From Oceanospirillaceae bacterium UBA7410 (GTDB lineage: Bacteria; Pseudomonadota; Gammaproteobacteria; Pseudomonadales; Balneatricaceae): 18,433 bases of DNA. A program made the translations under genes and the position numbers. The notes below the pieces were generated by a model that saw only the letters and a program-made list of their open reading frames with translations, did no database searches and was not told where the DNA came from. Of this stretch, positions 1 to 18,122 are shown piece after piece. The DNA lies in assembly GCA_002470565.1 (NCBI GenBank), contig DKMQ01000082.1, positions 1,266 to 19,698 of the forward strand, in the 5' to 3' direction. Position 1 is the first letter of the stretch. Each line of letters opens with the position of its first letter.

Positions 1-1386
1 ATGGCCGTGGCAGTCTTAGTCCCAATTTCATTCGGTATGGCTCCAGAAACAGCGCTGATTTTGTTAGGCGCTATTTATACTGGTGCCATTTATGGTGGCG
101 CATATGCTGCTATTTTACTGAATACTCCTGGCACACCTTCAGCTATTGCTACGACCTTTGACGGTTATCCACTAGCAAAGCGTGGCAAAGGAGATTTGGC
201 AGTTGCCATCGCTTGTTTTTCGTCCGTATTTGGTGGTTTAGTAGGTGCTTTTGCGCTGCTTTTTCTTGCTCCCCCACTCGCCTCTGTCGCTTTGGCATTT
301 GGACCAGTAGAGTATTTTTGGTTATCTATTTTTGGACTTTCTCTAATTGCTTCCCTGTCTCAAGGTAACCTAATGATGGGCCTAGCAGGCGGTGCCTTAG
401 GTATGATTATGTCGACGGTAGGAGTGGCAGAAATTTCAGCTGACATCCGCCTGACTTTTGGTAGTCAAACCATGATTTCAGGGTTTGAAGTAGTGGGTGC
501 AATGATAGGGCTTTACTGCATTCCTGTGCTCATAGACATGTGCTCTACAGGAGAGAAACATCTAAAAATAACGGGTGAAGTGGCTAAGATGCCAATTCTT
601 AGCGCAGCACGCATTACCTTTAATTCAAAGTTCAATTTAATTCGGTCTTCCATTATTGGCACACTGGTTGGTATCTTGCCAGGTGCTGGAGGCTCGGTAG
701 CTGGCTTGGTAGCGTATACCGAAGCAAAACGCACCGCCAAACCTCACCAACGGTTTGGTGAAGGTGAACCCGATGGAATTATTGCAACTGAATCTGCAAA
801 TAATGCCACAGTGGGTGGCGGGTTTATACCTACCTTGGTATTAGGTATCCCTGGCACTCCACCGGATGCAGTGATCTTGGGAGCGCTTATGGTTCAGGGT
901 GTGCGGACTGGGCCAGAATTATTTCAGTCAAATGGTTCTATTGTTTACACCTTTATTTATGGTCTATTGATTGCCACTATACTCATGCTACCTATTGGCC
1001 TAATTATTGGCCGCTATGCATATAAATCTATTGTTACTATCCCTAAAGCAGTATTGGTTCCCACTGTTGGATTCATGACCATCATAGGCACTTATGCAAT
1101 CAGAAACAGTATCTCTGATGTTGTTGTCATGCTGTGCTTGGGAGTGTTCGGCTGGCTTATTTCGAAATATGGCTTTTCGGCATCGCCAATTGTGCTTGGC
1201 TTGATTCTTGGCCCCATAGCAGAACAAGGGTTTGTTCAGGCGTGGACTATTGGTGCGGCAGTCAATAATTTGCCTGGCATGTTCTTTGGACGGCCCTTAT
1301 CACAGGCGATTATCGCATTCACATTAATTTCGTTGGTATTACCTTGGTATTTAAGTAGAAAAACACAAATTAAGGCGGACGCTTAA
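1..1386 (+). CDS. tctA: TctA-family permease of a tripartite tricarboxylate (TTT) transporter, 5'-partial
   Basis: This is the large membrane subunit of a TTT secondary transporter, which imports organic anions delivered by a periplasmic TctC-type binding protein. The visible 461 residues are very hydrophobic. They carry the TctA signature near the start (L-N-T-P-G-T-P-S-A, followed by D-G-Y-P), and a second G-I-P-G-T-P-P-D-A repeat in the middle, as is usual for the two-fold family architecture. Family members are about 500 residues. Here roughly 40 N-terminal residues, including the first membrane helix, are missing, so the ATG at position 1 is probably an internal Met and the gene starts outside the window. 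The tctB start lies one base after the stop. The TctC gene is not visible and may lie upstream. The neighbouring comDE and hydroxyacid dehydrogenase suggest a 3-sulfolactate-type substrate, as proposed for SlcHFG in Roseovarius. The substrate is inference; the family is firm. Confidence 0.9.
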   Translation: MAVAVLVPISFGMAPETALILLGAIYTGAIYGGAYAAILLNTPGTPSAIATTFDGYPLAKRGKGDLAVAIACFSSVFGGLVGAFALLFLAPPLASVALAFGPVEYFWLSIFGLSLIASLSQGNLMMGLAGGALGMIMSTVGVAEISADIRLTFGSQTMISGFEVVGAMIGLYCIPVLIDMCSTGEKHLKITGEVAKMPILSAARITFNSKFNLIRSSIIGTLVGILPGAGGSVAGLVAYTEAKRTAKPHQRFGEGEPDGIIATESANNATVGGGFIPTLVLGIPGTPPDAVILGALMVQGVRTGPELFQSNGSIVYTFIYGLLIATILMLPIGLIIGRYAYKSIVTIPKAVLVPTVGFMTIIGTYAIRNSISDVVVMLCLGVFGWLISKYGFSASPIVLGLILGPIAEQGFVQAWTIGAAVNNLPGMFFGRPLSQAIIAFTLISLVLPWYLSRKTQIKADA

Positions 1387-1387
1387 G

Positions 1388-1867
1388 ATGATTGAATCAG
1401 ATGTAAAAGCATCCTCAGTGAACCCCGTAGATAGTGGCAGTAGGTTAGGTTCCATTCTAGTGGCAAGTTTGCTTATTATAATTGGCGTCATTACTTTATA
1501 TGATGCTGCAAGTTATACAGACGTAGATTCCAAAGTATTTCCTCAAACATCAGCTATTGCATTAATCCTATTTTCTACCTTGGCTATAGGCAAACAAATC
1601 ATACAGCCTACAGTGGTTTCAGGGATTGAGCTTGGCTCTTGGTGGCGAAGGATCGTTTTAGTCTCTAGCATGCTCCTATCCTGTGCATTAATGCCGTATA
1701 CCGGGCTATTGATTGCTTGTGTCCTGACATTTGTACTGGGTTTAATTGCGTCTATGCATGATTCTTGGACTAACAGAAAGGCCATCGTTTACTTTCTTTC
1801 TGGGCTATCAATAATAGTGTGCTTTTACGTACTGTTTAAATTTGTACTTCATGTGCCACTCCCCTAA
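1388..1867 (+). CDS. tctB: TctB-family small subunit of a TTT transporter
   Basis: A 159-residue protein with about four hydrophobic segments (roughly residues 23-41, 52-66, 88-125 and 137-155). This is the size and layout of the small TTT membrane subunit, which pairs with TctA. The sequence is poorly conserved in this family, so the call rests mainly on topology, length and position. The gene begins one base after the tctA stop, with an AAGG at 1372-1375 as a weak, rather distant ribosome binding site, so translational coupling to tctA is likely. The order tctA-tctB is the reverse of the common tctC-tctB-tctA order. No other family fits better. Confidence 0.78.
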   Translation: MIESDVKASSVNPVDSGSRLGSILVASLLIIIGVITLYDAASYTDVDSKVFPQTSAIALILFSTLAIGKQIIQPTVVSGIELGSWWRRIVLVSSMLLSCALMPYTGLLIACVLTFVLGLIASMHDSWTNRKAIVYFLSGLSIIVCFYVLFKFVLHVPLP

Positions 1868-1911: not shown

Positions 1912-4860
1912 ATGATGTATGACCCAATGCCAGATTCACCAAGCTGTAACAATAATATGACCAACCCTGCTATCTACCATGCTGAGTTAATCAACTTTCA
2001 CACTGAGCTGACACAGATGCTGGATGGTGAGTGTGATTTTTCTGCAACAGGTGTTGCATTATATACCTCAGACGCTTCCAACTATCGCCAAATACCACTA
2101 GGTGTCGTATACCCTAAATCGGTTGATGACCTTGTTAACACCATAACACTGTGTCAAACATTCGGCCTGCCTGTGCTAATGCGTGGTGGTGGCACCTCTC
2201 AAAATGGTCAGGGAGTTAATGAGGCTGTGGTTGTAGACTGCTCTCGCTACCTCACTCGAGTCTCAGAAATTGATGTTGAAAACCAAACCGCGCTAGTAGA
2301 CCCTGGTGTGATCTGTGACGAGCTAAAACAACAGGCAGAAGTTTACGGCCTGACATTTGGGCCTGACCCTGGCACTCACAGTCGCTGTACCTTAGGCGGG
2401 ATGATTGGTAATAATTCTTGTGGACCGCATTCTATGCTCGCAGGAAAAACAGTCGAAAACGTCATAGAACTTGAAATACTCACCTCAGATGGTGCTCGAT
2501 TCTGGGTTGGCCCAACAACAGGTGTAGAGCTTGAAAACATCATTACTGGACATGACCGCAGGGCTATAATCTATCGTGAGCTGCTATCAATCCGTGATGA
2601 CTACCAGGAGCTTATTCGACAACGATATCCCGATATAAAGCGCAGAGTGTCAGGTTATAACCTAGACCAGCTTTTACCCGAAAATAACTTCAACGTGGCG
2701 CGCGCTTTGGTAGGTACAGAAGGAACCTGCGTCACCATATTGCAAGCGCGTGTCAAACTCATCCAAAATCCAGTCCACACTCGTTTAATAGTGCTTGGTT
2801 TTGAAGATATATTTGCTGCTGCGGACAGTGTGCCTGAAATTCTGCCATTTTCTCCGATTGCAATGGAGGGTTTAGACTGGGGCATTATTGGTGACTTAAT
2901 AGACCGTAACCTTAAAAAGGTTGAAATCGCTTTGTTACCTCAAGGTCGCGCATGGTTGATGGTTGAGCTGTGCGCAGACAGCCCCGAACATCTAGATCAT
3001 TTGTGCAGTAAGTTTGAAGCTACAATGCAAGAATCAAAGCGTGTGAAGTCGGTATTACAAGTCAAAAGTTCTGCCCACACTGCTTCAATATGGAGTATTC
3101 GTGAGCAAGGTGCATCAGCAACGGCAATGGGGCTCAATCCAGGTGATCCAGACCCAGTGGTTGGTTGGGAAGACACCGCTGTAGATCCACAACAGCTGGG
3201 TGACTATCTACGTGAATTTAGCGCATTAATCCAACGTTATGGGTATACCAGCAGTCTATATGGCCATTTTGGTGATGGCTGTATCCATGCCCGAATAACC
3301 TTCGATACCCGCACAGCCAAAGGCATTAGCAAGTGGCGCAAGTTTAGTGTTGAAATTGCGCAGCTAGTCGTGCAATTTGGTGGATCACTGTCTGGTGAAC
3401 ATGGGGATGGCCAGGCTAAAGCTGAATTTTTACCCATTATGTTTGGGCCAGAATTGATGCATGCTTTTGGGAGATTTAAAAAAATCTGGGACCCAGAGCA
3501 ACGCATGAACCCAGGTAAGCTTATAGATGCTTACAAGATGGACGAAAACCTCCGCTACGGTGCCGACTATAAGCTACCACTGATACCAACTGTATTGCAT
3601 TTTAAAGACGATGTGGGTGGCTTCTCTCGCGCCACTGAACGCTGCATTGGCATGGGCAAGTGTCGTTCTCAAAGTGGTGCAATGTGCCCTAGCTATCAGG
3701 TAACCCAGGAAGAGCGCTATTCCACTCGTGGTAGGGCTCACTTGCTTCATGAGATGGTGCGAGGTGAAGTGATTCAGGATGGCTGGGCTAACAAGGATAT
3801 TGCCGATTCATTTGAGCATTGCCTGTCATGCAAGGCCTGTAAGACGGAATGCCCAACGCAGGTGGATATTGCAACCTACAAGGCAGAGTTTATGTCTGCC
3901 CATTATGCCAACAAGCGGCGACCACTGCACCACTACCCCTTAGCTTATATTGGTAATTTACTGCCTAAGCTTTCCAGAGTTTCTGGTGTGGTGAATATAC
4001 TGCAATCGGGATTTGCAGGTAAGCTGACAAAAATATTTTTGGGTTTGAGTGATGAAAAGGGTTTGCCCAAGCTTGCCGATCAATCCTTTACTAACTGGGC
4101 TAAAAAACATGCTGACCACCAGGATCATGCATTTGACTGGTTTGGTGAAAAGAGTCAGCCCACTGTTGTCCTTTGGGCAGATAGTGTGAATAACCATTAT
4201 CGTCCCCAATTATTAAAAAGTGCAGTTAATGTATTACTTAAAAGTGGCCACCAAGTGGCTGTGGCAAGGCAACATTTTTGTTGTGGGCGGCCATTATATG
4301 AATATGGTTTTTTAGCTCAAGCATTAAAGCAATTGGCTTTAATTCTAGAGGGATTTCACTCTAGCTTGCCAGCCAAATGTTCGGTGGTAGTGCTTGAGCC
4401 TTCGTGTTTATCAGTGTTTAAAGATGAACTCTTAAACGCTTTTCCTGACGATGCGCGGGCAATTGATTTAAGTAACAGGGCCAAAACATTGGCCAGATAT
4501 CTCAGTGATGAATCTATTGCCCTATCAAAACAATTAGATAGTGGGATGTTGCACCTTCACTGCCATGATAAGTCTTTAGGCATGTCATCACATGAAAGAG
4601 AGTGGATGCAGCGTTGTTTTAAAGACCTAAAAGAACCTGAAAGTGGCTGTTGCGGCATGGCAGGAACCTATGGATTAAAGAAGAAGACAAGGTCTATTGG
4701 GCAACGTTTATTTGAACGACGCCTAAAACCTGCAATTAATAATGCTACAGATGGCACAGTGTTGGTTACTAATGGGTTTAGCTGTTTTGAACAGATGTCT
4801 GATGGGCATGCCAAGCGCTGCGTTTTACACCCTGTTGAAGTCATTGAAATCTGTTTGTAG
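1912..4860 (+). CDS. FAD-binding / Fe-S D-2-hydroxyacid dehydrogenase (GlcD-GlpC fusion), candidate sulfolactate dehydrogenase
   Basis: A 982-residue fusion. Residues about 55-270 form a PCMH-type FAD domain, with R-G-G-G-T-S near 91-96 and P-D-P-G-T near 151. Residues about 280-540 form the FAD-oxidase C-terminal domain, with Y-G-H-F-G-D-G at about 450 and S-G-E-H-G-D-G at about 494. A ferredoxin-like Fe-S region follows, with cysteines from 578 and a C-x2-C-x2-C-x3-C-P cluster at 637-647. Two CCG-type heterodisulfide-reductase motifs lie at 790-791 and 913-914. The layout matches YdiJ/D-lactate-type dehydrogenases of about 1000 residues, which oxidise D-2-hydroxyacids and pass electrons to the respiratory chain. 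Lying between a TTT transporter and comDE, it may oxidise one enantiomer of 3-sulfolactate to sulfopyruvate, the role given to SlcD in Roseovarius; this is inference. The start is uncertain: the AAGGAG at 1866-1871 is too far upstream, and ATG 1915 or 1957 are alternatives. Glycolate, D-lactate or D-2-hydroxyglutarate are other possible substrates. Confidence 0.88.
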   Translation: MMYDPMPDSPSCNNNMTNPAIYHAELINFHTELTQMLDGECDFSATGVALYTSDASNYRQIPLGVVYPKSVDDLVNTITLCQTFGLPVLMRGGGTSQNGQGVNEAVVVDCSRYLTRVSEIDVENQTALVDPGVICDELKQQAEVYGLTFGPDPGTHSRCTLGGMIGNNSCGPHSMLAGKTVENVIELEILTSDGARFWVGPTTGVELENIITGHDRRAIIYRELLSIRDDYQELIRQRYPDIKRRVSGYNLDQLLPENNFNVARALVGTEGTCVTILQARVKLIQNPVHTRLIVLGFEDIFAAADSVPEILPFSPIAMEGLDWGIIGDLIDRNLKKVEIALLPQGRAWLMVELCADSPEHLDHLCSKFEATMQESKRVKSVLQVKSSAHTASIWSIREQGASATAMGLNPGDPDPVVGWEDTAVDPQQLGDYLREFSALIQRYGYTSSLYGHFGDGCIHARITFDTRTAKGISKWRKFSVEIAQLVVQFGGSLSGEHGDGQAKAEFLPIMFGPELMHAFGRFKKIWDPEQRMNPGKLIDAYKMDENLRYGADYKLPLIPTVLHFKDDVGGFSRATERCIGMGKCRSQSGAMCPSYQVTQEERYSTRGRAHLLHEMVRGEVIQDGWANKDIADSFEHCLSCKACKTECPTQVDIATYKAEFMSAHYANKRRPLHHYPLAYIGNLLPKLSRVSGVVNILQSGFAGKLTKIFLGLSDEKGLPKLADQSFTNWAKKHADHQDHAFDWFGEKSQPTVVLWADSVNNHYRPQLLKSAVNVLLKSGHQVAVARQHFCCGRPLYEYGFLAQALKQLALILEGFHSSLPAKCSVVVLEPSCLSVFKDELLNAFPDDARAIDLSNRAKTLARYLSDESIALSKQLDSGMLHLHCHDKSLGMSSHEREWMQRCFKDLKEPESGCCGMAGTYGLKKKTRSIGQRLFERRLKPAINNATDGTVLVTNGFSCFEQMSDGHAKRCVLHPVEVIEICL

Positions 4861-4998: not shown

Positions 4999-5022
4999 TC
5001 ATAAATAACTTTGGAGGTGAGC

Positions 5023-5520
5023 ATGCAGTTGGACAAAATCGTTATCGATGCATTTGAAAAGAACAAAATTGAACTAGTCACTACGGTGCCCTGTAAACAG
5101 TTGAGTGGTGTAATAGCTGAACTAGAAGCACGCGAAAGTATGACGCATATTCCAGCCAACAAAGAAGACGAAGGTATGGGCATTTGCGCAGGTGCGTTTA
5201 TGGGTGGCAAAAGGTCTGCCATTATTATGCAAAACACAGCGATTGGTGTAACCATTAATACTTTGGTGACATTAACTCAATTTTATCGCTTACCATTGCC
5301 TATGTTAATTAGTTTCCGTGGCGAGCTAGGCGAGCCTGTGGCTTGTCAGGTTGAAATGGCGGTCCACACCAAGGCTCTATTAGCCCAGCTGGGTATTCCA
5401 ACCTATCACTTCCATAATCGTGATGATGTTCATGAGTTGGATGAGATATTAAAATATACCTTTATGTGTAACAAACCTGTAGCGATTTTGACCGACGCTT
5501 CATTTTGGAAAGGAGAGTAA
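5023..5520 (+). CDS. comD: sulfopyruvate decarboxylase subunit alpha (ComD)
   Basis: With ComE, this forms the thiamine-diphosphate (TPP) enzyme that converts 3-sulfopyruvate to sulfoacetaldehyde plus CO2. The 165-residue protein is the pyrimidine-binding half of a TPP enzyme. It carries the acidic segment N-K-E-D-E-G-M-G-I near residues 47-55, which supplies the activating glutamate, and the conserved Q-N-T-A-I-G that follows. The start at 5023 is chosen because an excellent GGAGGTGA (5013-5020) stands directly before it; the upstream in-frame TTG at 5011 would include that ribosome binding site in the protein. comE begins one base after the stop. The main alternative, phosphonopyruvate decarboxylase, is normally one chain of about 380 residues. 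The split subunits and the presence of xsc in the same window favour sulfopyruvate. Confidence 0.92.
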   Translation: MQLDKIVIDAFEKNKIELVTTVPCKQLSGVIAELEARESMTHIPANKEDEGMGICAGAFMGGKRSAIIMQNTAIGVTINTLVTLTQFYRLPLPMLISFRGELGEPVACQVEMAVHTKALLAQLGIPTYHFHNRDDVHELDEILKYTFMCNKPVAILTDASFWKGE

Positions 5521-5521: not shown

Positions 5522-6076
5522 ATGATACGTTCCGAGATTATTAAAAATTTAGTCCCCGTCCTTTCCGGACAACTAGTGGTTTGTAATATTGGTCTGCCCA
5601 GTCAGGAAATGCATTTGTTTGGAGACCAACCTAGCAATTTTTATATGTTAGGCACCATGGGCTTATCTTCATCCATTGGACTTGGTTTAGCTTTGGCGCA
5701 GGACAAAACAGTGATAGCCATTGATGGTGATGGCTCGGTCTTAACCAACTTAGGCACGCTACCCACTATTGCAAACAATGTAAGAGATAACTTTATTTTA
5801 CTCATTATAGATAATGGAAGTTATGGCTCAACAGGTGATCAACCCACTTATGCGGGTAAAAAAACCTCTCTGGCTGCAGTAGCAAGTGCATGTGGTTGTG
5901 AAAACGTCATTGAATGTCAGGCTGATGAGGCGGTAGATGTTGTTGAAGCAGCTATTGCTAGCAAAAAAATGACTATTATTATTTGCAAATGTATCTCAGG
6001 CAATATCCCCGTCCCAGTGATTACTTTAGATCCTGTGGTGATTAGGCACCGGTTCATGCAGGCAGTAGAAGCATGA
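5522..6076 (+). CDS. comE: sulfopyruvate decarboxylase subunit beta (ComE)
   Basis: This is the TPP-binding half of sulfopyruvate decarboxylase. The 184-residue protein shows the classic TPP/Mg motif G-D-G-S at residues 69-72, with the paired Asn at 98 (D-N-G-S-Y), the usual 28-residue separation. The adjacent S-T-G-D-Q-P-T resembles that of sulfopyruvate and phosphonopyruvate decarboxylases. The start has a strong AAGGAGAG site overlapping the end of comD, and only one base separates the two genes, consistent with a fixed subunit ratio. The enzyme supplies sulfoacetaldehyde, the substrate of the Xsc encoded at 10151-11929. In methanogens the same pair makes coenzyme M. Here the presence of xsc and hydroxyacid dehydrogenases points to catabolism. 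Confidence 0.92.
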   Translation: MIRSEIIKNLVPVLSGQLVVCNIGLPSQEMHLFGDQPSNFYMLGTMGLSSSIGLGLALAQDKTVIAIDGDGSVLTNLGTLPTIANNVRDNFILLIIDNGSYGSTGDQPTYAGKKTSLAAVASACGCENVIECQADEAVDVVEAAIASKKMTIIICKCISGNIPVPVITLDPVVIRHRFMQAVEA

Positions 6077-6095: not shown

Positions 6096-7241
6096 ATGGT
6101 TAGCAAATTAGACAGCAGGGCTGCCAGTATTGCAGACCTGAAGCTGCTTACTAGAAAGCGCATCCCTAAGTTTGCCTATGAGTATCTGGTAGGAGGTTGT
6201 AATAATGATCAAGCTATCTCACATAACAGAGAAGCTTTAGATCGTATTTTTTTACACCCTTCTTACCTTTCTAGAACTCAACCTGCTAGCCTAAAAACCC
6301 GCGTTTTAGGGGTGGAGTATGATGCCCCATTTGGCATTGCTCCGCTGGGCTTAAGCGGATTGATTTGGCCTAAAGCTGCGGAGTATCATGGCGCAGCAGC
6401 AAAAAAAGCCAATATTCCATATATATTAAGTACCCTAGCAAGCACATCAATAGAGGATGCTGCTGCGTGTGCTGGGCGTAATCTTTGGTTTCAACTTTAC
6501 CCACCTAAAGATCAGGAAATCAGGCTTGACCTTATGCAAAGGGCCCAGCAGGTAGGGTGTAATAATCTAGTGGTCACTATTGATGTTCCTGTTGCTGGAA
6601 GAAGGCCAAACGATATTAAAAATGGCTTATCGGTGCCACCTAAAATCACTCTCAAGAGCATTTATCAAACCTTGTCTAGGCCATCCTGGGCAATGGCAAC
6701 TGGCTTGAATGGCATGCCACAATTTGCCAGCATGACGCCCTATATGAAAAAGCTATCCAACCTTAACGATGTAGCTAACTATATTCGCAGCACTTTAAAG
6801 GAACCTGTAGACATTACTATGCTGGAGCAGTTGCGACAGCAATGGTCAGGAAACTTGATTGTTAAGGGTGTTCTTAACGTTGAAGATGCAAAATACTGCG
6901 CCGCTATCAATGCTGACGCTATTATTGTATCTAACCATGGTGGCAGGCAACTGGATGCAGCCTGTTCTCCAGCCCAGGTGATGAAGGAAATAGTTGACAG
7001 CGTGGGTGATAAGCTTGAAGTCTTTGTAGATAGTGGCGTTGAATCGGGTGTTGATATTGCCAGATACTTGGCTTTAGGCGCTAACATGGTTTTTTCTGGC
7101 AGGCCGTATATGTATGGTGTTGGTGCATTTGGGCAGCAAGGGGCCGATCACTGCATCGACATACTTTATAGTGAGCTTGAGCAAGTTATGAACCAATTAG
7201 GGTGCTCATCGCCTGATGAACTAGTGAAATTTTTAAAGTGA
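6096..7241 (+). CDS. FMN-dependent L-2-hydroxyacid dehydrogenase/oxidase (LldD/glycolate oxidase family)
   Basis: A 381-residue member of the alpha-hydroxyacid-oxidising FMN TIM-barrel family, usually 350-400 residues. Family active-site elements are all visible: the N-terminal F-A-Y-E-Y (Tyr30, matching Tyr24 of glycolate oxidase), F-Q-L-Y with the second catalytic Tyr, the V-K-G-V lysine that contacts FMN N1, and S-N-H-G-G-R-Q-L-D with the catalytic His and substrate-binding Arg. Such enzymes oxidise L-2-hydroxyacids (lactate, glycolate, mandelate) to 2-oxoacids. The gene starts 19 bases after comE, so it is very probably co-transcribed. This suggests the product of its reaction is the ComDE substrate, sulfopyruvate, making L-(S)-sulfolactate the likely substrate. 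That assignment is inference from context; lactate remains possible. Confidence 0.88.
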   Translation: MVSKLDSRAASIADLKLLTRKRIPKFAYEYLVGGCNNDQAISHNREALDRIFLHPSYLSRTQPASLKTRVLGVEYDAPFGIAPLGLSGLIWPKAAEYHGAAAKKANIPYILSTLASTSIEDAAACAGRNLWFQLYPPKDQEIRLDLMQRAQQVGCNNLVVTIDVPVAGRRPNDIKNGLSVPPKITLKSIYQTLSRPSWAMATGLNGMPQFASMTPYMKKLSNLNDVANYIRSTLKEPVDITMLEQLRQQWSGNLIVKGVLNVEDAKYCAAINADAIIVSNHGGRQLDAACSPAQVMKEIVDSVGDKLEVFVDSGVESGVDIARYLALGANMVFSGRPYMYGVGAFGQQGADHCIDILYSELEQVMNQLGCSSPDELVKFLK

Positions 7242-8245: not shown

Positions 8246-8257
8246 GTAACAATTAAT

Positions 8258-9997: not shown

Positions 9998-10003
9998 ATT
10001 ATA
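9998..10003 (-). promoter_or_regulatory. probable -10 element of the gltX promoter
   Basis: A perfect TATAAT on the minus strand lies 38 bases before the gltX start, in the 190-base space between gltX and xsc. No convincing -35 hexamer is visible 16-18 bases upstream, so the element is only a candidate. Confidence 0.35.
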
Positions 10004-10065
10004 CCTGAAACTGGGTTTATGTATATTGGTAGCTGTGAGGCTTTGGTGGCCGGTGAATTGGGGGC

Positions 10066-10108
10066 AAAAAAAAGCCCCAATAACAACATCAGTTGTTATT
10101 GGGGCTTT
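10066..10108 (-). terminator. intrinsic terminator of xsc
   Basis: A perfect 17-bp stem (10071-10087 with 10092-10108) with a 4-base loop. Its descending arm is followed on the minus strand by a run of T's (complement of 10066-10073). It lies 42 bases after the xsc stop and should end the right-hand operon before gltX. Confidence 0.92.
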
Positions 10109-10150: not shown

Positions 10151-11929
10151 TTATGCACCTTTTTGTGGACGCATATCGTCTTTGCTAATACCAGCTACTT
10201 GCACTGGATTCTTCATAGCGTCACGACGGAACGGGTCGCCTAGCTCTTGGTTGATTAGGATTTCAATTAGCGTGGTCTTGCCCGCTGCTTGATCTACTAA
10301 TGCTTGGCTAAGTGCATCGCTTACTTCGTCCATTGTGCGAGCTTGTACGCCTTTAAGGCCACATGCTTGTGCAATGCCTGCATAGTTTACGTTTTCGTCA
10401 AGCTCTGTGCCTACGAAGTTGTCGTCAAACCATAAAGTAGAGTTGCGCTTCTCTGCGCCCCACTGGTAGTTACGTAGCACTACCATAGTGATTGCTGGCC
10501 ACTCGTCACGGCCAATGGCTGTAAGCTCAGTTACCGCAATACCAAATGCGCCGTCGCCAGAAAAACCAATTACTGGAGTATCTGGGCAACCAATCTTGGC
10601 GCCTACTACTGCTGGTAGTCCGTAGCCACATGGGCCAAACAAACCAGGAGCCAAATACTTACGACCTTCTTCAAAAGTAGGATAAGCGTTACCAATGGCA
10701 CAGTTGTTGCCTATGTCTGAAGAGATGATCGCTTCTTTAGGCATAACAGATGCAATTGCGCGCCAAACCATACGTGGGCTCAACCAATCTGGCTTAGCTT
10801 CACGAGCACGTTCGTTCCAAGTAGTACCTGGATCGTCTTCTTCGTGAGTCATGGCTTCTAGTTCTACATCCCAAGCCGCTTTAGTAGAGGCAATGCGCGC
10901 TTTACGTGCAGCACGATCAGTGTCGCCAGCTGTTGCTGAAAGTTGAGAGATAATACCGTTGGCTACTTTAGCAGCATCGCCTACAATACCTACTGTTACA
11001 GCCTTAGTTAAACCAATACGCTCTGGCTTAAGGTCTACTTGGATGATTTTGGCATTTTTTGGCCAGTAGTCAATACCGTAACCAGGCAAGGTAGAGAATG
11101 GGTTTAGGCGTGTGCCCAAAGCCAATACTACGTCTGCTTCTTGGATCAACTGCATGCCTGCCTTAGAGCCGTTATAGCCTAGTGGGCCTGCAAATAATGG
11201 GTGTGAGCCTGGGAAAGCATCATTGTGCTGATAACCACAACATACTGGAGCATCTAAAAGCTCAGCCAATGCCATAGAAGCTTCAATACCGCCAGCAGCC
11301 AATACCACACCTGCGCCGTTTAGGATAACGGGAGACTTAGCAGCAGACAAAAGCTTGGCAGCTTCAGCTACAGCCATTTCGCCACCTGAAGGCAATTCAA
11401 AGTCGATCATTGTAGGCAAGTTGATGTCTACAATCTGCGTGAACATGTCACGTGGAATGTTGATTTGAGCTGGGCCAGAAAAACGATGTGCGTTAGCAAT
11501 AACACGATCTAGCACTTCTGCAACACGCGTTGGATCACGCACTTCTTCTTGATAACAAACCATGTCTTTAAACAAAGCCATTTGCTCTACTTCTTGGAAA
11601 CCGCCTTGGCCAATCGTTTTGTTAGCCGCTTGAGGCGTTACCAACAAAAGAGGTGTGTGGTTCCAGTAAGCTGTTTTAACAGGTGTTACAAAGTTAGTGA
11701 TACCTGGGCCGTTTTGAGCAATCATCATACTCATTTTGCCAGTTGCACGGGTGTAACCGTCTGCCATCATGCCGCCAGAACCTTCATGGGCACAATCCCA
11801 GAAGCTAATTCCAGCTTTTTCAAAAAGGTCAGATACAGGCATCATAGCTGATCCGATAATACCAAATGCGTGCTCAATACCGTGCATTTGTAATGTTTTT
11901 ACAAACGCTTCTTCTGTAGTCATTTTCAT
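10151..11929 (-). CDS. xsc: sulfoacetaldehyde acetyltransferase (Xsc)
   Basis: A TPP enzyme that cleaves sulfoacetaldehyde with phosphate to acetyl phosphate and sulfite, the desulfonation step for taurine, isethionate, sulfoacetate and sulfolactate carbon. The 592-residue chain has the usual length and three-part layout of the acetolactate-synthase superfamily: N-terminal pyrimidine domain with the activating Glu49 (C-A-H-E-G-S-G-G), central domain, and C-terminal TPP domain with G-D-G at 458-460 and the L-R-N-Y-Q-W-G-A-E-K Asn segment. Overall wording is distinctly Xsc rather than acetolactate synthase, and no FAD-type regulatory subunit gene is adjacent. ATG 11929 has AGGG ten bases upstream; ATG 11923 is an alternative. 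It is last in the minus-strand block after the TRAP genes, with its own 250-base leader. Phosphotransacetylase, often next to xsc, is absent here. Confidence 0.96.
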   Translation of the reverse strand: MKMTTEEAFVKTLQMHGIEHAFGIIGSAMMPVSDLFEKAGISFWDCAHEGSGGMMADGYTRATGKMSMMIAQNGPGITNFVTPVKTAYWNHTPLLLVTPQAANKTIGQGGFQEVEQMALFKDMVCYQEEVRDPTRVAEVLDRVIANAHRFSGPAQINIPRDMFTQIVDINLPTMIDFELPSGGEMAVAEAAKLLSAAKSPVILNGAGVVLAAGGIEASMALAELLDAPVCCGYQHNDAFPGSHPLFAGPLGYNGSKAGMQLIQEADVVLALGTRLNPFSTLPGYGIDYWPKNAKIIQVDLKPERIGLTKAVTVGIVGDAAKVANGIISQLSATAGDTDRAARKARIASTKAAWDVELEAMTHEEDDPGTTWNERAREAKPDWLSPRMVWRAIASVMPKEAIISSDIGNNCAIGNAYPTFEEGRKYLAPGLFGPCGYGLPAVVGAKIGCPDTPVIGFSGDGAFGIAVTELTAIGRDEWPAITMVVLRNYQWGAEKRNSTLWFDDNFVGTELDENVNYAGIAQACGLKGVQARTMDEVSDALSQALVDQAAGKTTLIEILINQELGDPFRRDAMKNPVQVAGISKDDMRPQKGA

Positions 11930-12181: not shown

Positions 12182-14515
12182 CTACCAGTAATTAGGCAAC
12201 CACAATGCAATTTGTGGGAAGAATATGATCAACAGCAAACCGATTAGCTGAATTACCATAAACTGCATCATACCCAAATAAATATCTTTTAAGTCCCACT
12301 CCGGCACTACTCCTTTTAAGAAGTAGGCAGATAGAGCCACAGGAGGACTTAACCAAGCCGTTTGTAGGTTCACTGCGACCAGTATGGCAAACCAAATCAA
12401 CAAGTCTGCCTGACTCAAGCCAAAGTCTAGTGTTTCTACCACAGGCAATAAAATAGGTACGATGATCAATACAATAGGCACCCACTCTAGGGGCCAGCCT
12501 AGCAAGAAAATCAATGCCAAGATGAAAAACAGCATAGCCCATGACGACATATCAAAGGACAAAAGTAATTCGGTTAGCATTTGCGGTGTGCCTAAGTTAG
12601 AGAAGACCGCACCAAAGAAGTTTGATGCTGCCACCAAGAACATGATCAACACAGTAATTTCTAAAGTTTTAATCAAGGCATCATACGTAGCAACAACACT
12701 AAACTTTTTATAACCGATAGATAGAATTAACGATCCAAAAGCACCACACGCAGCTGCTTCTGCTGGAGTTGCAAGGCCTGCCACAATAGAGCCTAAAGAA
12801 AAGGCAATCAGTACTGTCGGTGGCACTAGCCCCATAAAGAATTCATACCACAAATCAGAGAAATAGAACCCTTTAGGTCTCACTGCACGAGCCCATTTAA
12901 ACGCCCAAAACATAAAGCCAATCCATAATAATGGAATCACTAGCCCTGCAAGTGGGAAGAATGATATGGCGCCTTTAGTAGCCAATACACATAAGAATAC
13001 AAACATGCCCAAACCAGACATGACAAGTATGACTTCTAGGCCATAGTAAGGTGAGGTTTCTGGCTGATCTTCTTCAGGCAAGATAGGCCCAAGATCAGGG
13101 TTAATCATGCATCGACCAATAGTGTAAATCATATACAAACTAGCCAATAACACCCCAGGCAGCACTGCCGCACGGAATAAATCTGTTACGGGCACTTCTA
13201 ATACTGGGCCCATTACAATCAACATGATGGATGGCGGTATTAAAATACCTAAGGTACCACCTGCGGTAATCGCACCTGCAGATAGACGCACATCATAATT
13301 AGAGCGATTCATGGTTTTAGCTGCCATGATGCCCAAAATAGTCACCGAGGCGCCCACGATGCCGGTAGCTGCTGCAAAGATCATAGATACAAACAATACG
13401 GCTACAAATAGCGCACCACGTGTGCGAGACATCATCATTTGTACAGCGTTAAACAGGCGCTCCATTAGCCCTGCTTGCTCCATCATAATGCCCATAAAGA
13501 TAAACAAAGGCACCGCTACAAGCTGATCATTAAGCATGGTGGAGTTAACTTGAAGGGTAAGCAAGAAGAAAGCTAACTTGCTACTACCTGCTATGGAAGC
13601 AAACACAAACCCAAGAAAAATCAAGGTAAAGGAAATAGGGAAACCAATGAAAATAGAAAACAACATGGCTGCCAACATAAGCATACCAATCATAGGTTTT
13701 GAAATATTTACATCACCTAGTGCACTTGCTATCCAATCACCTAAGGGTAAAACATCAGGATAAAACACGGATACAAAAACACACGCCAAACCAATTAAAT
13801 AGAATGGAAAAAAGCTTAAAAACTTCGCTTCTCGCTGCTTGCCCATTTGATGGAAAGCACGGAATAGCTCAGGGAAACCTTGTAAAAATAGTAATCCTGC
13901 ACCGATAGGCATAAATATGCGCGCAGGCCATAAGTAAGGTGCCCATGTCGAGTCAGCACTAGCATCTTCCCAAATACCCCACTCTTCACCCCAGCCATTA
14001 AATCCTAAAGAGTCACCAGCAAAACCTAGTGCGCTCCAAAAGAAGAACAACATGGCAGGGAAATAGAACATCATATATAACACTGCATCCACAGTGGCTT
14101 GCGTTCTTTCGTGCCAATTACGGAAGATAAAATCAGCGCGAATATGCACACCACGCATCAAGGCATAGCCTGATGCAGCCATAAATATGACACCTCCAAG
14201 CATTCGACTGATGTCATACACCCAAGTGGTAGGCCCCAAATTCACAGCTCGAGCAAGGTCTCCCAAGTCATAAGAAACCAGTAGAGCAAACATACCGCGA
14301 GAAAATACTTCAGTAACCATTACAGCCACTAAGGGAATAATAGCCAAACAAATGATGCGCCCCATCCACAAGTTCAGCACATCAATGAAAGCTGTTATGG
14401 GCCGCTGCCAAGACGTCATGTCCTCTGGTGTTTCACCAGGTTTTTCAGCGCGCCGCTCTGCAATTAATTCATCGGTGATTTCAAGTTCACCAATGTCTGT
14501 TGTTTGTGTCGCCAT
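12182..14515 (-). CDS. fused TRAP transporter permease (DctQ-DctM)
   Basis: Membrane component of a TRAP transporter, which uses an ion gradient to import organic acids delivered by a periplasmic binding protein. The 777-residue chain fuses the small DctQ domain (residues about 35-230, four membrane segments, with a tryptophan- and glutamate-rich loop between) to the large DctM domain (about 275-770, many membrane segments, typical G-x-P-x-x-F and G-I-L-I-P-P-S features). A clear AGAGGAAG site precedes the ATG. The binding protein gene is directly upstream, separated by a terminator-like hairpin. TRAP systems are known for taurine (TauKLM), isethionate (IseKLM) and dihydroxypropanesulfonate (HpsKLM). 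Xsc downstream and a GMC dehydrogenase upstream make isethionate the best guess, by inference. Confidence 0.92.
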   Translation of the reverse strand: MATQTTDIGELEITDELIAERRAEKPGETPEDMTSWQRPITAFIDVLNLWMGRIICLAIIPLVAVMVTEVFSRGMFALLVSYDLGDLARAVNLGPTTWVYDISRMLGGVIFMAASGYALMRGVHIRADFIFRNWHERTQATVDAVLYMMFYFPAMLFFFWSALGFAGDSLGFNGWGEEWGIWEDASADSTWAPYLWPARIFMPIGAGLLFLQGFPELFRAFHQMGKQREAKFLSFFPFYLIGLACVFVSVFYPDVLPLGDWIASALGDVNISKPMIGMLMLAAMLFSIFIGFPISFTLIFLGFVFASIAGSSKLAFFLLTLQVNSTMLNDQLVAVPLFIFMGIMMEQAGLMERLFNAVQMMMSRTRGALFVAVLFVSMIFAAATGIVGASVTILGIMAAKTMNRSNYDVRLSAGAITAGGTLGILIPPSIMLIVMGPVLEVPVTDLFRAAVLPGVLLASLYMIYTIGRCMINPDLGPILPEEDQPETSPYYGLEVILVMSGLGMFVFLCVLATKGAISFFPLAGLVIPLLWIGFMFWAFKWARAVRPKGFYFSDLWYEFFMGLVPPTVLIAFSLGSIVAGLATPAEAAACGAFGSLILSIGYKKFSVVATYDALIKTLEITVLIMFLVAASNFFGAVFSNLGTPQMLTELLLSFDMSSWAMLFFILALIFLLGWPLEWVPIVLIIVPILLPVVETLDFGLSQADLLIWFAILVAVNLQTAWLSPPVALSAYFLKGVVPEWDLKDIYLGMMQFMVIQLIGLLLIIFFPQIALWLPNYW

Positions 14516-14721: not shown

Positions 14722-15825
14722 TTACTTGAGACTGTCGGCAAAAGCCTTACCTAAACTAGCATTAGATGCTTGAGCACCTGACCAGAAAGGCACTGCGATT
14801 TCAGCGAAGTCTTTTTGTGACTGCCAAACTTCTGCAAAGAATTCATTATCATCAGAAGCTTTTTGAAGCAGAGCATTAGCTGCATTCATATACTCAGGGA
14901 AATAATCTGCAGGCGTATCATGCAATTGCACACCATGGTTTTCGGTTAAGTCTTTAAGAGCTTTACCGTTCTCATAGATACGATAAGAGATCGCTTTTGA
15001 CAATGAAGCATTAGCAGCTACTTCTATAGCTTTCTTTTGCAACGTTGTTAAAGAGTCATAAACATCACCGTTTAAGTACATGTCAGCATTTACCACTACC
15101 TGGTGAAGACCTTGTAGATAATAATGCTTTAATACTTTTTGGAAACCAAACACACTGTCAGGCTTTGGACAGCACCATTCGGCAGCGTCAATTGTGCCTT
15201 TTTCAAGTGCAGGTAGTATGTCACCACCACCCATTGCAACAGAAGCTACGCCAATGTCTTTATAAGCTTGACCTACCATGCCTGGAGGAGCACGGAAACG
15301 CAGCTTACGGAAGTCATCCATAGAGTTAATTGGCTCAGGGAACCAACCCAAAGCTTCTGGGCCTACAGGTTGTAACATAAAGCCTTTAACGTTTACGCCC
15401 ATTTCATCCCACAAACGGTCATAAAGCTCTTTACCACCGCCGTACTGGAACCAAGAAAGGAAGGCGATGTTATCAAGGCCTACACCTGCACCTGCGATTG
15501 GCGCACCAAATAGGTTAGCCGCTGGATGCTTACCACCCCAATAATGGGTCCAAGCAAAACCACCATCTAGCAAACCAGCATCAATAGCGTCGATGATGTC
15601 AGTGTTACCAACCACTGAACCGCCTGGCAATATTTCAATGTTCACAGAACCGTCAGTCAAGTCACTTACATCTTTAGCAAATTCCTTTAACATGTGAACT
15701 TCATCAGATTTAGTGCCAAGTACTGATTGCACACGAATAGTCACATCTTTTGCAACAACTGCAGTAGAGCTAATAATTAGCACACCAGCAGCAACAGCAA
15801 CCTTCATTTTATTTAAAACGGACAT
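14722..15825 (-). CDS. TRAP transporter periplasmic substrate-binding protein (DctP/TakP type)
   Basis: A 367-residue secreted binding protein of a TRAP transporter. Residues 1-25 form a signal peptide: lysines, then a hydrophobic stretch, ending V-V-A before K-D-V. The mature protein shows the DctP pattern, including K-L-R-F-R-A-P-P-G around 174-182 (Arg178 is the likely anion-binding arginine) and I-D-A-A-E-W at 212-217, characteristic of the TakP subgroup. The start is ATG 15825, because GGAGG (15831-15835) precedes it at five bases; the in-frame ATG at 15837 lies upstream of that site. It works with the fused permease at 12182-14515. A sulfonate ligand such as isethionate is inferred from xsc and the GMC dehydrogenase; a carboxylate ligand is the alternative. 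Confidence 0.93.
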   Translation of the reverse strand: MSVLNKMKVAVAAGVLIISSTAVVAKDVTIRVQSVLGTKSDEVHMLKEFAKDVSDLTDGSVNIEILPGGSVVGNTDIIDAIDAGLLDGGFAWTHYWGGKHPAANLFGAPIAGAGVGLDNIAFLSWFQYGGGKELYDRLWDEMGVNVKGFMLQPVGPEALGWFPEPINSMDDFRKLRFRAPPGMVGQAYKDIGVASVAMGGGDILPALEKGTIDAAEWCCPKPDSVFGFQKVLKHYYLQGLHQVVVNADMYLNGDVYDSLTTLQKKAIEVAANASLSKAISYRIYENGKALKDLTENHGVQLHDTPADYFPEYMNAANALLQKASDDNEFFAEVWQSQKDFAEIAVPFWSGAQASNASLGKAFADSLK

Positions 15826-15928
15826 AATGTCCTCCATTTTTATTGTTTACCTTCTAGATCACTGTTTACGTCTGCTACATGGAAGGCTTCATGCAACATC
15901 CCACAAGGGGACAACAGAGGTTTTATAG

Positions 15929-16534
15929 CTAGCCGGTTAATAACCCACTAGACAATAAATTCATTACACCGTCATACAACATGTCACAAGCTAAGTATAC
16001 TAGGAATAATAATCCAATATAAGATATCCATGGATACTTTAGCATGAATCTCATAATAATTGAGGCAAAAAAGGCCATCATAATAATGGCAAATACCAAA
16101 CCAAATATCAGTAGCTGAGTATCTTCTCTGGCAATGGCTGCAACCGCCACTACATTATCTAAAGACATAGAAATGTCTGCTACCGCAATAGTAAATAATG
16201 CACCCAACAAACTATCTTTACCCTGCACGGCAGTGACTTCGTTAGGGTTAGCTGCGTTGTTAGTAAACTCAACAATTTCGTGATAAAAACGCCAACATAC
16301 CCACGCTAGCAATAAACCGCCAATAATCAAAATACCCGGAATATCAATTATATAGGTGGCTCCAGCAGCAAATATAATGCGGAAAAAAGCCGCTAATCCC
16401 ATGCCTACAGCCAGCACCATACGGCGCTTCTCTGGCGCTATGCCTGCTGCCACCATACCAATGACTATTGCGTTATCTCCAGATAAAATGATATCTGCAA
16501 AAATGATCTGTATCAGACCTGTCCAATCAAACAT
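15929..16534 (-). CDS. TerC-family integral membrane protein (YjbE-like)
   Basis: A 201-residue membrane protein with about seven hydrophobic segments. It has the paired TerC signatures S-G-D-N-A at residues 18-22 (Asp20) and V-A-D-I-S-M-S-L-D-N at 118-127 (Asp120, Asp126), the intramembrane aspartates that define the family. Characterised relatives export manganese or take part in tellurium resistance; the role of most members is unknown. Its start overlaps the end of the GMC dehydrogenase by eight bases, so the two are translationally coupled. The TRAP binding protein follows after 103 bases with no clear terminator. This places a TerC protein where sulfonate clusters usually encode a TauE-type sulfite/sulfonate exporter. 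A role in sulfite efflux or in supplying a metal is speculation. Confidence 0.88.
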   Translation of the reverse strand: MFDWTGLIQIIFADIILSGDNAIVIGMVAAGIAPEKRRMVLAVGMGLAAFFRIIFAAGATYIIDIPGILIIGGLLLAWVCWRFYHEIVEFTNNAANPNEVTAVQGKDSLLGALFTIAVADISMSLDNVVAVAAIAREDTQLLIFGLVFAIIMMAFFASIIMRFMLKYPWISYIGLLFLVYLACDMLYDGVMNLLSSGLLTG

Positions 16535-18122
16535 TAACGCTCTCCTGCAAAATCATTGCGGCTACTTTTTCACCAATCATAATGGCTGGCGCATTGGTAT
16601 TTCCTGAAGTAATAATGGGCATAATAGACGCGTCAGCTACACGTAAGCCTTCTATGCCATGCACCTTAAGCGCAGAGTCAACTACAGCCATATCATCTTG
16701 CCCCATTTTGCAGGTGCCTGTGGGATGATAAATAGTGGTGGCAGTTTCCCTTGCCCAGTCAAGAATATCTGCATCAGATTCTTCGCCCACACTTTCGCCT
16801 GGGCTAAATTCTTGTGTGATAAGTGAATTCAATGGGGCTTGTTTGGCAATCTGGCGAGCCATTTTTATACCCGCCACAATAGTTTGTTGATCTAATTCTG
16901 TGGCTAGGTAGTTGGGGTGAATGTCTGGATGGTCTGCAAACCGATCAGACACTATGCTTAAGTGTCCTGAACTTTGCGGACGCATTTGTAATACAGACGC
17001 TGTAAACGCATCAAATTTATGCGTACCCTCGGCAGGTGAATCGGCGCTAAAGGGTTGGATATGAAATTGAATATCTGGCCGATCTGGGCTTAGATGTGAC
17101 TTCACGAACCCTGTGCCAAGGCTTGCTGCCATAGTCATGGGGCCTGTTCGGTTTAATACATATTGCAGGCCAATAAGGCCCTGCTTAAACCAATTGCTTA
17201 TTTCTGTATTAATAGTGCTGGCAGCGCATTTAAACACTGGCCTAGCTTGTAAATGATCCTGTAAATTTTGTCCAACACCTGGCAACTCTTTAACTATTTT
17301 AATCTTATGGGGATTGAGCTGATCAACACTGCCTATGCCAGACACCATGAGTAATTGTGGTGAGCCTATAGCCCCAGCACACACAATGACTTCTTTGTTA
17401 GCTTTAAGTAAGCCATCAGCTAACTGCACTCCCGTTGCGCGCTTGCCTTCAAACAGCAGCTTTTCTACACAAGAGTTGGTAAGAATTGTAAGATTGCTGC
17501 GGCTACGCGCTGGGTTAAGGTATGCAACAGCAGAGCTGCAGCGCCTGCCTCTTTTAGCAGTGAGTTGAAACAGACCTACACCTTCTTGGTCTGCCCCGTT
17601 GTAGTCTTTGTTTTCAGGATAGCCACAATTTTTTGCTGCTTGTAACCATGCATCTACCACAGGTCTGCTTACGCGAGTCTTTGACACTGTAAGCGGCCCA
17701 CCTTGGCCTCGTAATGGACTACTTTGACCTTGCCAATCTTCAGAGCGCTTAAAATAGGGCAAGACATTGTCCCATTCCCAGCCTTCATTGCCTAAGTTTG
17801 CCCAGTCGTCAAAGTCTTGCGCTTGGCCGCGCACATAAAGCAGCCCATTAATAGAGCTACTACCACCCAACACTTTGCCTCTTGGCCAAGGTATTGAGCG
17901 ACCATTAAGGCCAGAACAGGATTTAGTTTTATAGCACCAGTCTGTGGACGGATTACCCATAGTTTTAAAGTAACCCACCGGAACATGGATCCAAGGATTT
18001 AAATCTCGGCTTCCTGCTTCGAGCAATGCCACTGTGTGGAAGCCATCTTGTGATAATCGGTTGGCAACAGCACACCCTGCTGAACCAGCTCCTACCACAA
18101 TGTAGTCAAATTGCCTTTGCAT
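16527..18122 (-). CDS. GMC-family FAD alcohol dehydrogenase, candidate isethionate dehydrogenase (IseJ-like)
   Basis: A 531-residue choline-dehydrogenase-like flavoprotein. It has the FAD-binding G-A-G-S-A-G at residues 12-17 with L-E-A-G following, GMC signature 1 (P-R-G-K-V-L-G-G-S-S-S-I-N-G) near 79-92, signature 2 (G-A-I-G-S-P-Q-L-L) near 251-259, and the active-site pair His466 (H-P-T-G-T) and Asn510 (N-T-N-A-P). The family oxidises alcohols to aldehydes and passes electrons to the respiratory chain. Choline dehydrogenase would normally sit with a betaine aldehyde dehydrogenase, which is absent. The TRAP genes and xsc downstream fit IseJ, the GMC-type isethionate dehydrogenase that yields sulfoacetaldehyde. 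The family is certain; the isethionate substrate is inferred. An AGAGG site precedes ATG 18122. It is first in the minus-strand block, divergent from an IclR-type gene. Confidence 0.9.
   Translation of the reverse strand: MQRQFDYIVVGAGSAGCAVANRLSQDGFHTVALLEAGSRDLNPWIHVPVGYFKTMGNPSTDWCYKTKSCSGLNGRSIPWPRGKVLGGSSSINGLLYVRGQAQDFDDWANLGNEGWEWDNVLPYFKRSEDWQGQSSPLRGQGGPLTVSKTRVSRPVVDAWLQAAKNCGYPENKDYNGADQEGVGLFQLTAKRGRRCSSAVAYLNPARSRSNLTILTNSCVEKLLFEGKRATGVQLADGLLKANKEVIVCAGAIGSPQLLMVSGIGSVDQLNPHKIKIVKELPGVGQNLQDHLQARPVFKCAASTINTEISNWFKQGLIGLQYVLNRTGPMTMAASLGTGFVKSHLSPDRPDIQFHIQPFSADSPAEGTHKFDAFTASVLQMRPQSSGHLSIVSDRFADHPDIHPNYLATELDQQTIVAGIKMARQIAKQAPLNSLITQEFSPGESVGEESDADILDWARETATTIYHPTGTCKMGQDDMAVVDSALKVHGIEGLRVADASIMPIITSGNTNAPAIMIGEKVAAMILQESVNV

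Follow-up and report, generated by a model that had tools for sequence, protein, structure and literature searches.

A probable composite island for organosulfonate catabolism with a single Xsc in a small-genome gammaproteobacterium

Results

Gene content of the window

We analyzed an 18,433-nucleotide stretch of DNA (the window) from Oceanospirillaceae bacterium UBA7410. The window spans positions 1266-19698 of contig C54 in the host genome, G000, a 2.07-Mb metagenome-assembled genome (MAG) that is 93.4% complete; public genomes related to its genus carry the label Oceanospirillaceae or Pseudomonadales. It contains two blocks of genes (Table 1). The left block, on the forward strand, carries tctA and tctB of a TTT-family transporter, a 982-residue dehydrogenase gene, comD, comE, an FMN dehydrogenase gene and a short-chain dehydrogenase/reductase (SDR) gene. 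The right block, on the reverse strand, carries genes for a GMC-family dehydrogenase, a TerC-family protein and a TRAP transporter, as well as xsc, encoding sulfoacetaldehyde acetyltransferase (Xsc). A tRNA-Ala gene and gltX separate the two blocks. The window likely represents most of a composite island for organosulfonate catabolism, in which 2,3-dihydroxypropane-1-sulfonate (DHPS), sulfolactate and isethionate-type inputs would all be served by one Xsc. We infer substrates, fluxes and regulation throughout; the gene families, the one xsc above its cut-off in the assembly, the co-occurrence of genes and the linkage of GMC, TRAP and hps genes were observed.

ComD, ComE and Xsc were called with NCBIfam equivalog cut-offs, and transporter and dehydrogenase families with Pfam. 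Open reading frames, cut-offs and Pfam agree with the genes and orientations named in a preliminary description of this DNA. The tRNA was the only match in an Rfam scan of the window. Short gaps (1 base between comD and comE, 19 bases between comE and the FMN dehydrogenase gene, and an 8-base overlap of the GMC and TerC genes) suggest operon organization within each block. TctA is read without its N-terminus because two N bases (contig 1264-1265) sit directly at the left edge of the window; tctC lies upstream, just outside the window (contig 173-1126). The start of gltX, as called, is probably too early.

Table 1 Features of the window, with positions counted from its first base
Feature	Position	Strand	Evidence
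tctA, TTT membrane subunit	1..1386	+	Pfam TctA 424.5 bits
tctB, small TTT membrane subunit	1388..1867	+	Pfam TctB 44.6 bits
982-residue FAD + 4Fe-4S D-2-hydroxyacid dehydrogenase	1912..4860	+	Pfam FAD_binding_4, FAD-oxidase_C, Fer4_8, CCG
comD, sulfopyruvate decarboxylase alpha	5011..5520	+	TIGR03845 153.9 bits, cut-off 147.95
comE, sulfopyruvate decarboxylase beta	5522..6076	+	TIGR03846 230.4 bits, cut-off 221.5
FMN L-2-hydroxyacid dehydrogenase	6096..7241	+	Pfam FMN_dh 397.7 bits
HpsO-like (R)-DHPS dehydrogenase, SDR	7319..8074	+	best PDB match 8wwf HpsO, 345.9 bits
tRNA-Ala (ggc), host gene between blocks	8258..8333	-	ARAGORN and Rfam
gltX, glutamyl-tRNA synthetase, housekeeping	8479..10089	-	TIGR00464 471 bits, cut-off 290
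Terminator-like 17-pair stem and T run, 3' of xsc, between xsc and gltX	10108..10071	-	
xsc, sulfoacetaldehyde acetyltransferase	10151..11929	-	TIGR03457 906.3 bits, cut-off 676.4
Fused TRAP membrane subunit, DctQ-DctM	12182..14515	-	Pfam DctM and DctQ
TRAP substrate-binding protein (Pfam DctP)	14722..15837	-	nearest solved relative 2hzk
TerC/YjbE-family membrane protein	15929..16534	-	TIGR03717 167.6 bits, cut-off 134.8
GMC FAD alcohol dehydrogenase, IseJ-like	16527..18122	-	Pfam GMC

The left block and its continuation beyond the window

The tctC-tctA-tctB set adjoins the comDE run in G000, G004 and G006 and lies beside comDE in loci L086, L123, L125 and L128, with sulfolactate as its putative substrate. 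The 982-residue enzyme scored 493 bits against the YdiJ model, under the cut-off of 1350, and its gene also adjoins comDE in G004, G006 and two Granulosicoccus loci (65% identity); we infer that it would oxidize D-configured (S)-sulfolactate. L-sulfolactate is the (R) form by the Cahn-Ingold-Prelog rules, as CH2SO3 outranks COOH. SlcD and SlcC are named as the R- and S-sulfolactate dehydrogenases, respectively, in excerpts of PMC11131964. The FMN dehydrogenase of the window, which has an SNHGGR motif at residue 279, is putatively SlcD-like, by family and position only. Both FMN 2-hydroxyacid dehydrogenases of G000 are of the right family and in the right position, at 33-35% identity to the comDE-linked enzyme of Alisedimentitalea. 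With an L-type FMN enzyme and a D-type 982-residue enzyme, both enantiomers of sulfolactate would therefore be covered. In four genomes of the genus (L055, L056, L057 and L058), ComD and ComE are fused in a single frame of 372-373 residues that falls under the ComE equivalog cut-off, possibly representing a separate sulfopyruvate decarboxylase lineage.

The further PDB matches of the SDR are 6le3, labelled gluconate 5-dehydrogenase (325.2 bits), and 9pvq (238 bits), with the next at 154 bits. Gln147, given as a binding residue of RpHpsO in the same excerpts (PMC11131964), was considered as a discriminator between DHPS and gluconate. It is present in the SDR of the window yet also in 6le3 and 9pvq, and so cannot decide the substrate. 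Gene position tells more, and on this basis we interpret the left block as one for DHPS and sulfolactate, the C3 substrate of which would be DHPS as much as sulfolactate. In G013, the SDR gene comes after comDE and the FMN dehydrogenase gene, and the next gene (L059:11094-11870) encodes a TauE/SafE exporter, the putative role of which fits the expected export of sulfite.

The gene run continues beyond the window. Just outside it, C54 goes on into the first 50 codons of an iclR gene, and contig C20 opens with a 157-residue C-terminal IclR piece, followed by another FMN dehydrogenase gene, hpsP, hpsN and the gene of a LacI-type regulator. As the intact IclR of G013 matches the C54 piece at residues 1-50 (86%) and the C20 piece at residues 98-254 (83%), some 47 codons are missing between the two contigs. 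HpsN scored 579 bits against 8v35 (sulfopropanediol 3-dehydrogenase), 553 against 8wwe ((R)-DHPS dehydrogenase) and 243 against histidinol dehydrogenase. The sole match of the C20 zinc-type dehydrogenase at 1e-40 is 8wwd (281 bits), which is labelled a zinc-containing alcohol dehydrogenase and whose entry series points to HpsP. The genes gmc, iclR, hpsP and hpsN share one contig in G001, G006, G007, G010 and G013 and follow one another in this order in G001, G006, G007 and G013. In G010, genes for an FMN dehydrogenase, fused ComDE, HpsP, HpsO and HpsN adjoin GMC-TerC-TRAP-xsc-gltX, a more clearly combined locus than any other seen in the genus. Given the HpsO-like SDR gene in the left block and hpsP and hpsN past iclR, the island would largely encode a DHPS/sulfolactate-to-Xsc pathway, plus an isethionate-type module. 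The preliminary description assigned the left block to sulfolactate; ComDE, over their cut-offs, support this, while the HpsO-like SDR and the HpsN and HpsP of C20 argue against sulfolactate alone.

The right block: GMC, TerC and TRAP

The GMC enzyme is 60% identical to those of Leisingera and Ruegeria plasmid loci, in which the order is IclR, large permease, small permease, binding protein and GMC; paralogues within the genus reach at most 50%. The C-terminal part of IclR is likewise 42-46% identical to the IclR proteins of Leisingera and Ruegeria. In a tree obtained by a quick search, seven GMC sequences of the genus and 12 of the 17 TRAP-linked GMC sequences from the named genomes described below form a clade of 19 rows (Shimodaira-Hasegawa-like approximate likelihood ratio test, SH-aLRT, 99), sister (SH-aLRT 90) to sequences of Leisingera, Ruegeria and Paracoccus. 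Owing to very long branches in part of the paralogue rows, the tree was used for inner clades only. The Paracoccus GMC gene (L185) and that of G061 (L230), the latter placed elsewhere in the tree, each lie beside xsc and IclR in stretches where no hps gene was seen. The reading of GMC as an isethionate enzyme gains support from these two loci, and the enzyme of the window probably makes sulfoacetaldehyde from isethionate.

The structure closest to the TRAP binding protein, 2hzk, is labelled sorbitol/mannitol SmoM, and ketoacid- and lactate-binding proteins come further down the match list. A substrate assignment from the PDB was attempted and was not decisive, as the DHPS TRAP protein 24gc scores just 31.8 bits. 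The binding protein gave no blastp match at 1e-5 to two proteins in the IseK position in Leisingera and Ruegeria, it weakly matches a protein in the HpsK position, and it had no match at 1e-60 among 72,556 plasmid records; the membrane subunits match those of Leisingera and Ruegeria in part (40% over 126 residues). As the binding protein is not IseK-like, the assignment of this block to isethionate, already made in the preliminary description, rests on GMC, IclR and xsc, and isethionate transport by this TRAP is putative. Its TerC/YjbE-family partner is a candidate sulfite or ion exporter. TerC diverges more than its neighbors within the genus (63% identity between G000 and G013) and was not found in locus L237 of G002.

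The single xsc and its association with comDE

Four proteins of G000 matched the Xsc model, one of them above the cut-off; among the matches listed, the others scored 318 and 217 bits, with the fourth lower still. The earlier claim of one xsc thus agrees with the content of this 93.4%-complete genome. PTA-family genes were also found in G000.

A sample of 56 genomes was examined for both xsc and comDE. comDE is present in ten of these, as split genes scoring over the cut-off in six and as a fused frame scoring below it in four. xsc is found in 7 of the 10, as compared with 9 of the 46 genomes without comDE (Fisher p 0.003, indicative only given the kinship of the genomes), and is in pieces in two of the seven (G003 and G006). 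We also considered 50 named comDE genomes, being those of 50 of 80 comE loci (L141, L150 and 28 others were left out). At E <= 1e-150, xsc is found in 46 of the 50, at identities of at least 72% in 38 and of 44-47% in 8, with the best copy carrying an in-frame stop in two genomes. The genomic association of ComDE and Xsc is well supported. An initial count of three genomes of the genus with comDE and without xsc was reduced to G004, as the contigs of G001 and G007 break where xsc would come: the former stops about 80 bases past the TRAP gene and the latter starts just ahead of the TRAP binding-protein gene.

Other states of the locus were also seen. In G002 (L177/L237), xsc occurs with hps genes and an FMN dehydrogenase gene, and comDE was not found in the genome. 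In G008 (L065, contig C91), xsc-gltX is kept, the entire TRAP-to-LacI island is gone and a formate-tetrahydrofolate ligase gene stands directly before xsc.

Other sulfonate inputs and outputs in the host genome

Contig C76 of G000 carries genes for a class III aminotransferase, a molybdopterin/FeS/DmsC-type trio resembling SoeABC, a TauE-family exporter and TauA/TauB-like proteins. The taurine and aminotransferase models matched below their cut-offs; taurine is likely used via these genes and may feed the same Xsc. On C85 (L274), CuyA scored 533 bits against the D-cysteate sulfo-lyase cut-off of 450, and a near relative on C97 scored 426, below it. As read from the sequence, the CuyA gene on C85 is preceded by a regulator-like gene and followed by transporter-like ones. 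CuyA would offer a possible Xsc-independent route for C3 sulfonates, such that deletion of xsc need not abolish growth on them; the earlier expectation that this deletion would abolish both uses is hence unsafe. In G004, which has comDE and in which no xsc was found, a CuyA relative scored 431 bits, below the cut-off. A search of G000, G004, G010 and G013 for SuyB (PF04295) gave no match.

The TRAP family as a marker of the island

Orthologues of the TRAP, called at E <= 1e-100, are found in 22 of the 50 named comDE genomes and in 7 of 15 genomes of the genus, with a broken copy in G022. In an even draw of 398 Pseudomonadota including G000, only one of the other 397 genomes, G171, has an orthologue. 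The difference between 22/50 and 1/397 is large (Fisher p about 2e-22, with the comDE genomes being related). The stretches surrounding the TRAP genes cover 9-19 kb, some ended by contig ends, and a neighbor was counted as nearby at an identity of at least 50% for GMC and at least 45% for hps. Among the 22 named loci, GMC is nearby in 17 and hps in 16, with both in 11, hps only in 5 and GMC only in 6; TerC is present in 16, also where GMC is missing (L247, L255 and L256; loci L246-L264). G171 has GMC-TRAP-hpsN-hpsP and IclR, with no TerC found. L120 and L138 each hold a unidirectional run, GMC-TerC-TRAP-hpsN-hpsO-hpsP-comDE-FMN dehydrogenase, with TRAP directly before hpsN; in L140, a second contig of the MAG that contains L138, an Alisedimentitalea-type TRAP takes that position.

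As these counts come mainly from genomes chosen for comDE, the linkage of TRAP with hps is biased upward; the phylum sample, the sole check not so chosen, added only one further TRAP locus. The recurrent linkage is that of TRAP, (TerC), GMC and IclR with hps, in both Gamma- and Alphaproteobacteria, and a shared C2/C3 importer would be the most economical reading of it. G022 (L069, C1:184000-203000) was considered as a stand-alone isethionate module and rejected. Its gmc lacks about 160 N-terminal residues, terC and trapP are in pieces and a LacI remnant abuts gmc, so that this locus, in which xsc is intact, is a decayed island.

The junction of the two blocks

The tRNA-Ala-gltX-xsc side is repeated in G002, G006 and G013, as well as in G010, where two genes lie between the tRNA and gltX. 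In G004, G006, G007 and G013, the split comDE block occupies another position, and each time a LysR-type gene lies upstream of it. It is on another contig than xsc in G006 and G013, and no xsc was found in G004 and G007. The alignment of G000 to its relatives switches over window positions 8074-8191. A MOSC gene follows the comDE block in G004 and G007; in G000, this gene lies 157 bases from the start of contig C97, a placement with a chance of about 1.7%. MOSC was considered as a universal neighbor of the comDE block and rejected, as the gene in that position is a TauE-family exporter in G013 and MOSC is there only in G004 and G007. Because G006 and G013 have other genes after the block, MOSC need not be the ancestral neighbor. 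There is no N at the junction, and positions 7950-8400 hold only short repeats; two hairpins, at 8134-8159 and 8203-8247, could end transcription.

Discussion

Proposed pathway

In the pathway that we propose, both enantiomers of DHPS would be converted to sulfopyruvate via HpsO, HpsP and HpsN (the latter two encoded on C20), as would imported sulfolactate, with the last oxidation being carried out by the FMN L-type dehydrogenases and, presumably, by the D-type 982-residue enzyme. ComDE would convert sulfopyruvate to sulfoacetaldehyde, GMC would probably yield the same aldehyde from isethionate, and the single Xsc would turn it into acetyl phosphate and sulfite. The taurine-type genes found elsewhere may feed the same Xsc, with CuyA serving as a bypass.

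Several observations weigh against this proposal and need to be considered. The left block stands beside gltX-xsc in none of the four relatives checked (G004, G006, G007 and G013), and the join of the left block with tRNA-Ala-gltX may reflect rearrangement, coincidence or chimeric assembly. Physical linkage of comDE and xsc is uncommon, as among the fetched stretches of the 80 comE loci xsc at an identity of at least 70% appears only in L105; a plasmid locus of Alisedimentitalea is another case. No xsc was found in G004, which has comDE, at 89% completeness. Conversely, comDE was not found in G002, the nearest relative by GMC, which is 94% complete and has xsc, gmc, hpsP and hpsN, nor in the genomes of G005 (L067) and G014 (L068), which have hps-FMN dehydrogenase-xsc clusters. 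At the level of single enzymes, the FMN dehydrogenase of the window shares only 33% identity with the Alisedimentitalea protein that occupies the SlcD position, and the HpsO call is not exclusive, with 6le3 (labelled gluconate 5-dehydrogenase) at 325 bits sharing the RpHpsO-type Gln.

Alternative explanations

If the left block were joined to gltX-xsc by MAG chimerism or chance, the two blocks would be physically unrelated. We consider this unlikely, even if the switch in the alignment of relatives at 8074-8191, the position of the comDE block elsewhere in G004, G006, G007 and G013 and the MOSC gene close to the start of C97 all point that way; the junction, however, is without N and has only short repeats, it is bordered by the two hairpins, and genes other than MOSC follow the block in G006 and G013. 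The adjacency of the left block to gltX-xsc hangs on one contig junction, and the uncertainty of this junction weakens the earlier notion of two modules that meet, when taken as an evolved unit. Conservation of the two blocks as a unit was not seen, with the two adjacent in 0/4 relatives, and the recurrent partner of GMC and TRAP is hps. The metabolic sharing of Xsc is independent of this adjacency.

A different possibility is that DHPS or some other C3 sulfonate, rather than isethionate, is the substrate of TRAP and GMC, with the whole being a DHPS island in which xsc is just the final step. This is suggested by the proximity of TRAP to hps in 16 of the 22 named loci (5 without GMC nearby), by L138 and L120, where TRAP directly precedes hpsN, and by the GMC-TRAP-hpsN-hpsP run of G171. 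It fits poorly with the Paracoccus L185 and G061 (L230) GMC genes, which lie beside xsc and IclR with no hps in the stretch, with the six of 22 TRAP loci that have GMC and no hps seen, and with the three other DHPS dehydrogenases already present in G000, and we find it rather doubtful. The arrangement originally envisaged, namely a dedicated, compact C2/C3 locus in which a sulfolactate-only left block and an isethionate right block with its own TRAP share xsc, appears improbable. The gene identities, the single xsc above the cut-off and the likeness of GMC and IclR to Leisingera and Ruegeria loci in the R. pomeroyi iseRMLKJ order are in its favor; yet an HpsO-like SDR gene lies inside the left block, hpsN and hpsP run on past iclR, the TRAP is not IseK-like and the adjacency of the left block was unseen in the four relatives checked. 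The composite island with DHPS, sulfolactate and isethionate-type inputs into one Xsc is the explanation that we favor. A more far-reaching claim can be offered only tentatively, as something that we would not expect to hold in full: the TRAP family, hitherto unassigned (of SmoM/ketoacid type, with fused QM subunit and usually TerC), would import both isethionate and DHPS and spread with GMC, IclR and hps between marine Alpha- and Gammaproteobacteria, and the 982-residue enzyme, as a respiratory dehydrogenase, would replace SlcC in this genus, with both sulfolactate enantiomers reaching ComDE and one Xsc.

Comparison with known systems

The preliminary description raised the possibility that this kind of arrangement was undescribed, which is not so for the Xsc pathway, as the DHPS/sulfolactate-to-Xsc route is already described in the parts of PMC11382572 consulted. 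There, hpsNOP-slcD-comDE-xsc is the Xsc pathway of DHPS, present in 37 of 272 organisms and stated to be restricted to Alphaproteobacteria, although the figure text cites a Granulosicoccus example (PMC11382572). As compared with that account, G000 shares homologues of HpsN, HpsO, HpsP, ComDE and Xsc, by sequence only, and differs in belonging to an Oceanospirillaceae/Pseudomonadales-labelled genus, in its separate gene runs, in the D-type dehydrogenase, in TctABC and in its other TRAP. The genomes of Granulosicoccus (L118 and L119) and of a gammaproteobacterium (L084) have hpsN, hpsO, hpsP, comDE and xsc.

The isethionate cluster of R. pomeroyi has the order iseR-M-L-K-J (PMC4334477, in part), and iseKLM mutants lose growth on isethionate (PMC10130141, in part). 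The window shares with it the grouping of GMC, IclR and TRAP, with Xsc downstream in the pathway, and differs in its other kind of TRAP binding protein, its fused QM subunit, the added TerC and the presence of xsc in the gene run, so far as the excerpts of PMC4334477, PMC10130141 and PMC9870897 go. The likeness to R. pomeroyi was drawn from the Leisingera and Ruegeria loci of the same gene order.

Roseovarius nubinhibens reportedly has a bifurcated 3-sulfolactate pathway, with an slcHFG TTT transporter, SlcD and either ComDE-Xsc or CuyA. By gene content alone, G000 is similar to that pathway in that a TTT transporter adjoins comDE and an FMN dehydrogenase gene and that CuyA is encoded in the genome, and it adds the HpsO-like SDR and the 982-residue D-2-hydroxyacid dehydrogenase. 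Plasmid locus L186 of Alisedimentitalea scapharcae, in which hps gene names were assigned here by sequence comparison, is alike in having xsc ... LacI-TRAP-hpsN-hpsO-hpsP-comD-comE-FMN dehydrogenase in one stretch, and differs in its other TRAP and in the lack of a GMC/TerC module in the stretch. Planktomarina (L126, L135 and L150) and Alphaproteobacteria UBA4588 (L134) have TRAP-TerC-GMC, iclR, lacI and hpsN-hpsO-hpsP-comDE; in contrast to the window, no Tct or 982-residue block lies in these four stretches, and xsc is on another contig in L126, L134 and L135, the three searched. Excerpts of PMC10675870 give hpsN, comDE and soeABC in Planktomarina-type genomes.

Within the titles and abstract beginnings of open-licence literature on hpsN/iseJ/xsc/comDE, isethionate and Nitrincolaceae/Oceanospirillaceae, the arrangement of the window was not found described, and TerC was not mentioned in the listed open-licence papers on isethionate. 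The kind of pathway is already known. Within this literature, three things appear to be new, namely the occurrence of the Xsc pathway in the genus, a GMC-(TerC)-TRAP-hps island that recurs and a D-type dehydrogenase beside comDE.

Implications

Marine plankton release DHPS, isethionate, sulfolactate and taurine, organosulfur compounds on which bacteria feed. If the proposed island is real, a small-genome marine gammaproteobacterial lineage would use several sulfonates through one Xsc, and the Xsc route would reach beyond the Alphaproteobacteria of the HpsN survey, as far as this is laid out in the portion of PMC11382572 considered. TRAP and TerC, which are enriched in comDE genomes, would moreover constitute a candidate transporter that escapes annotation based on likeness to IseKLM or HpsKLM.

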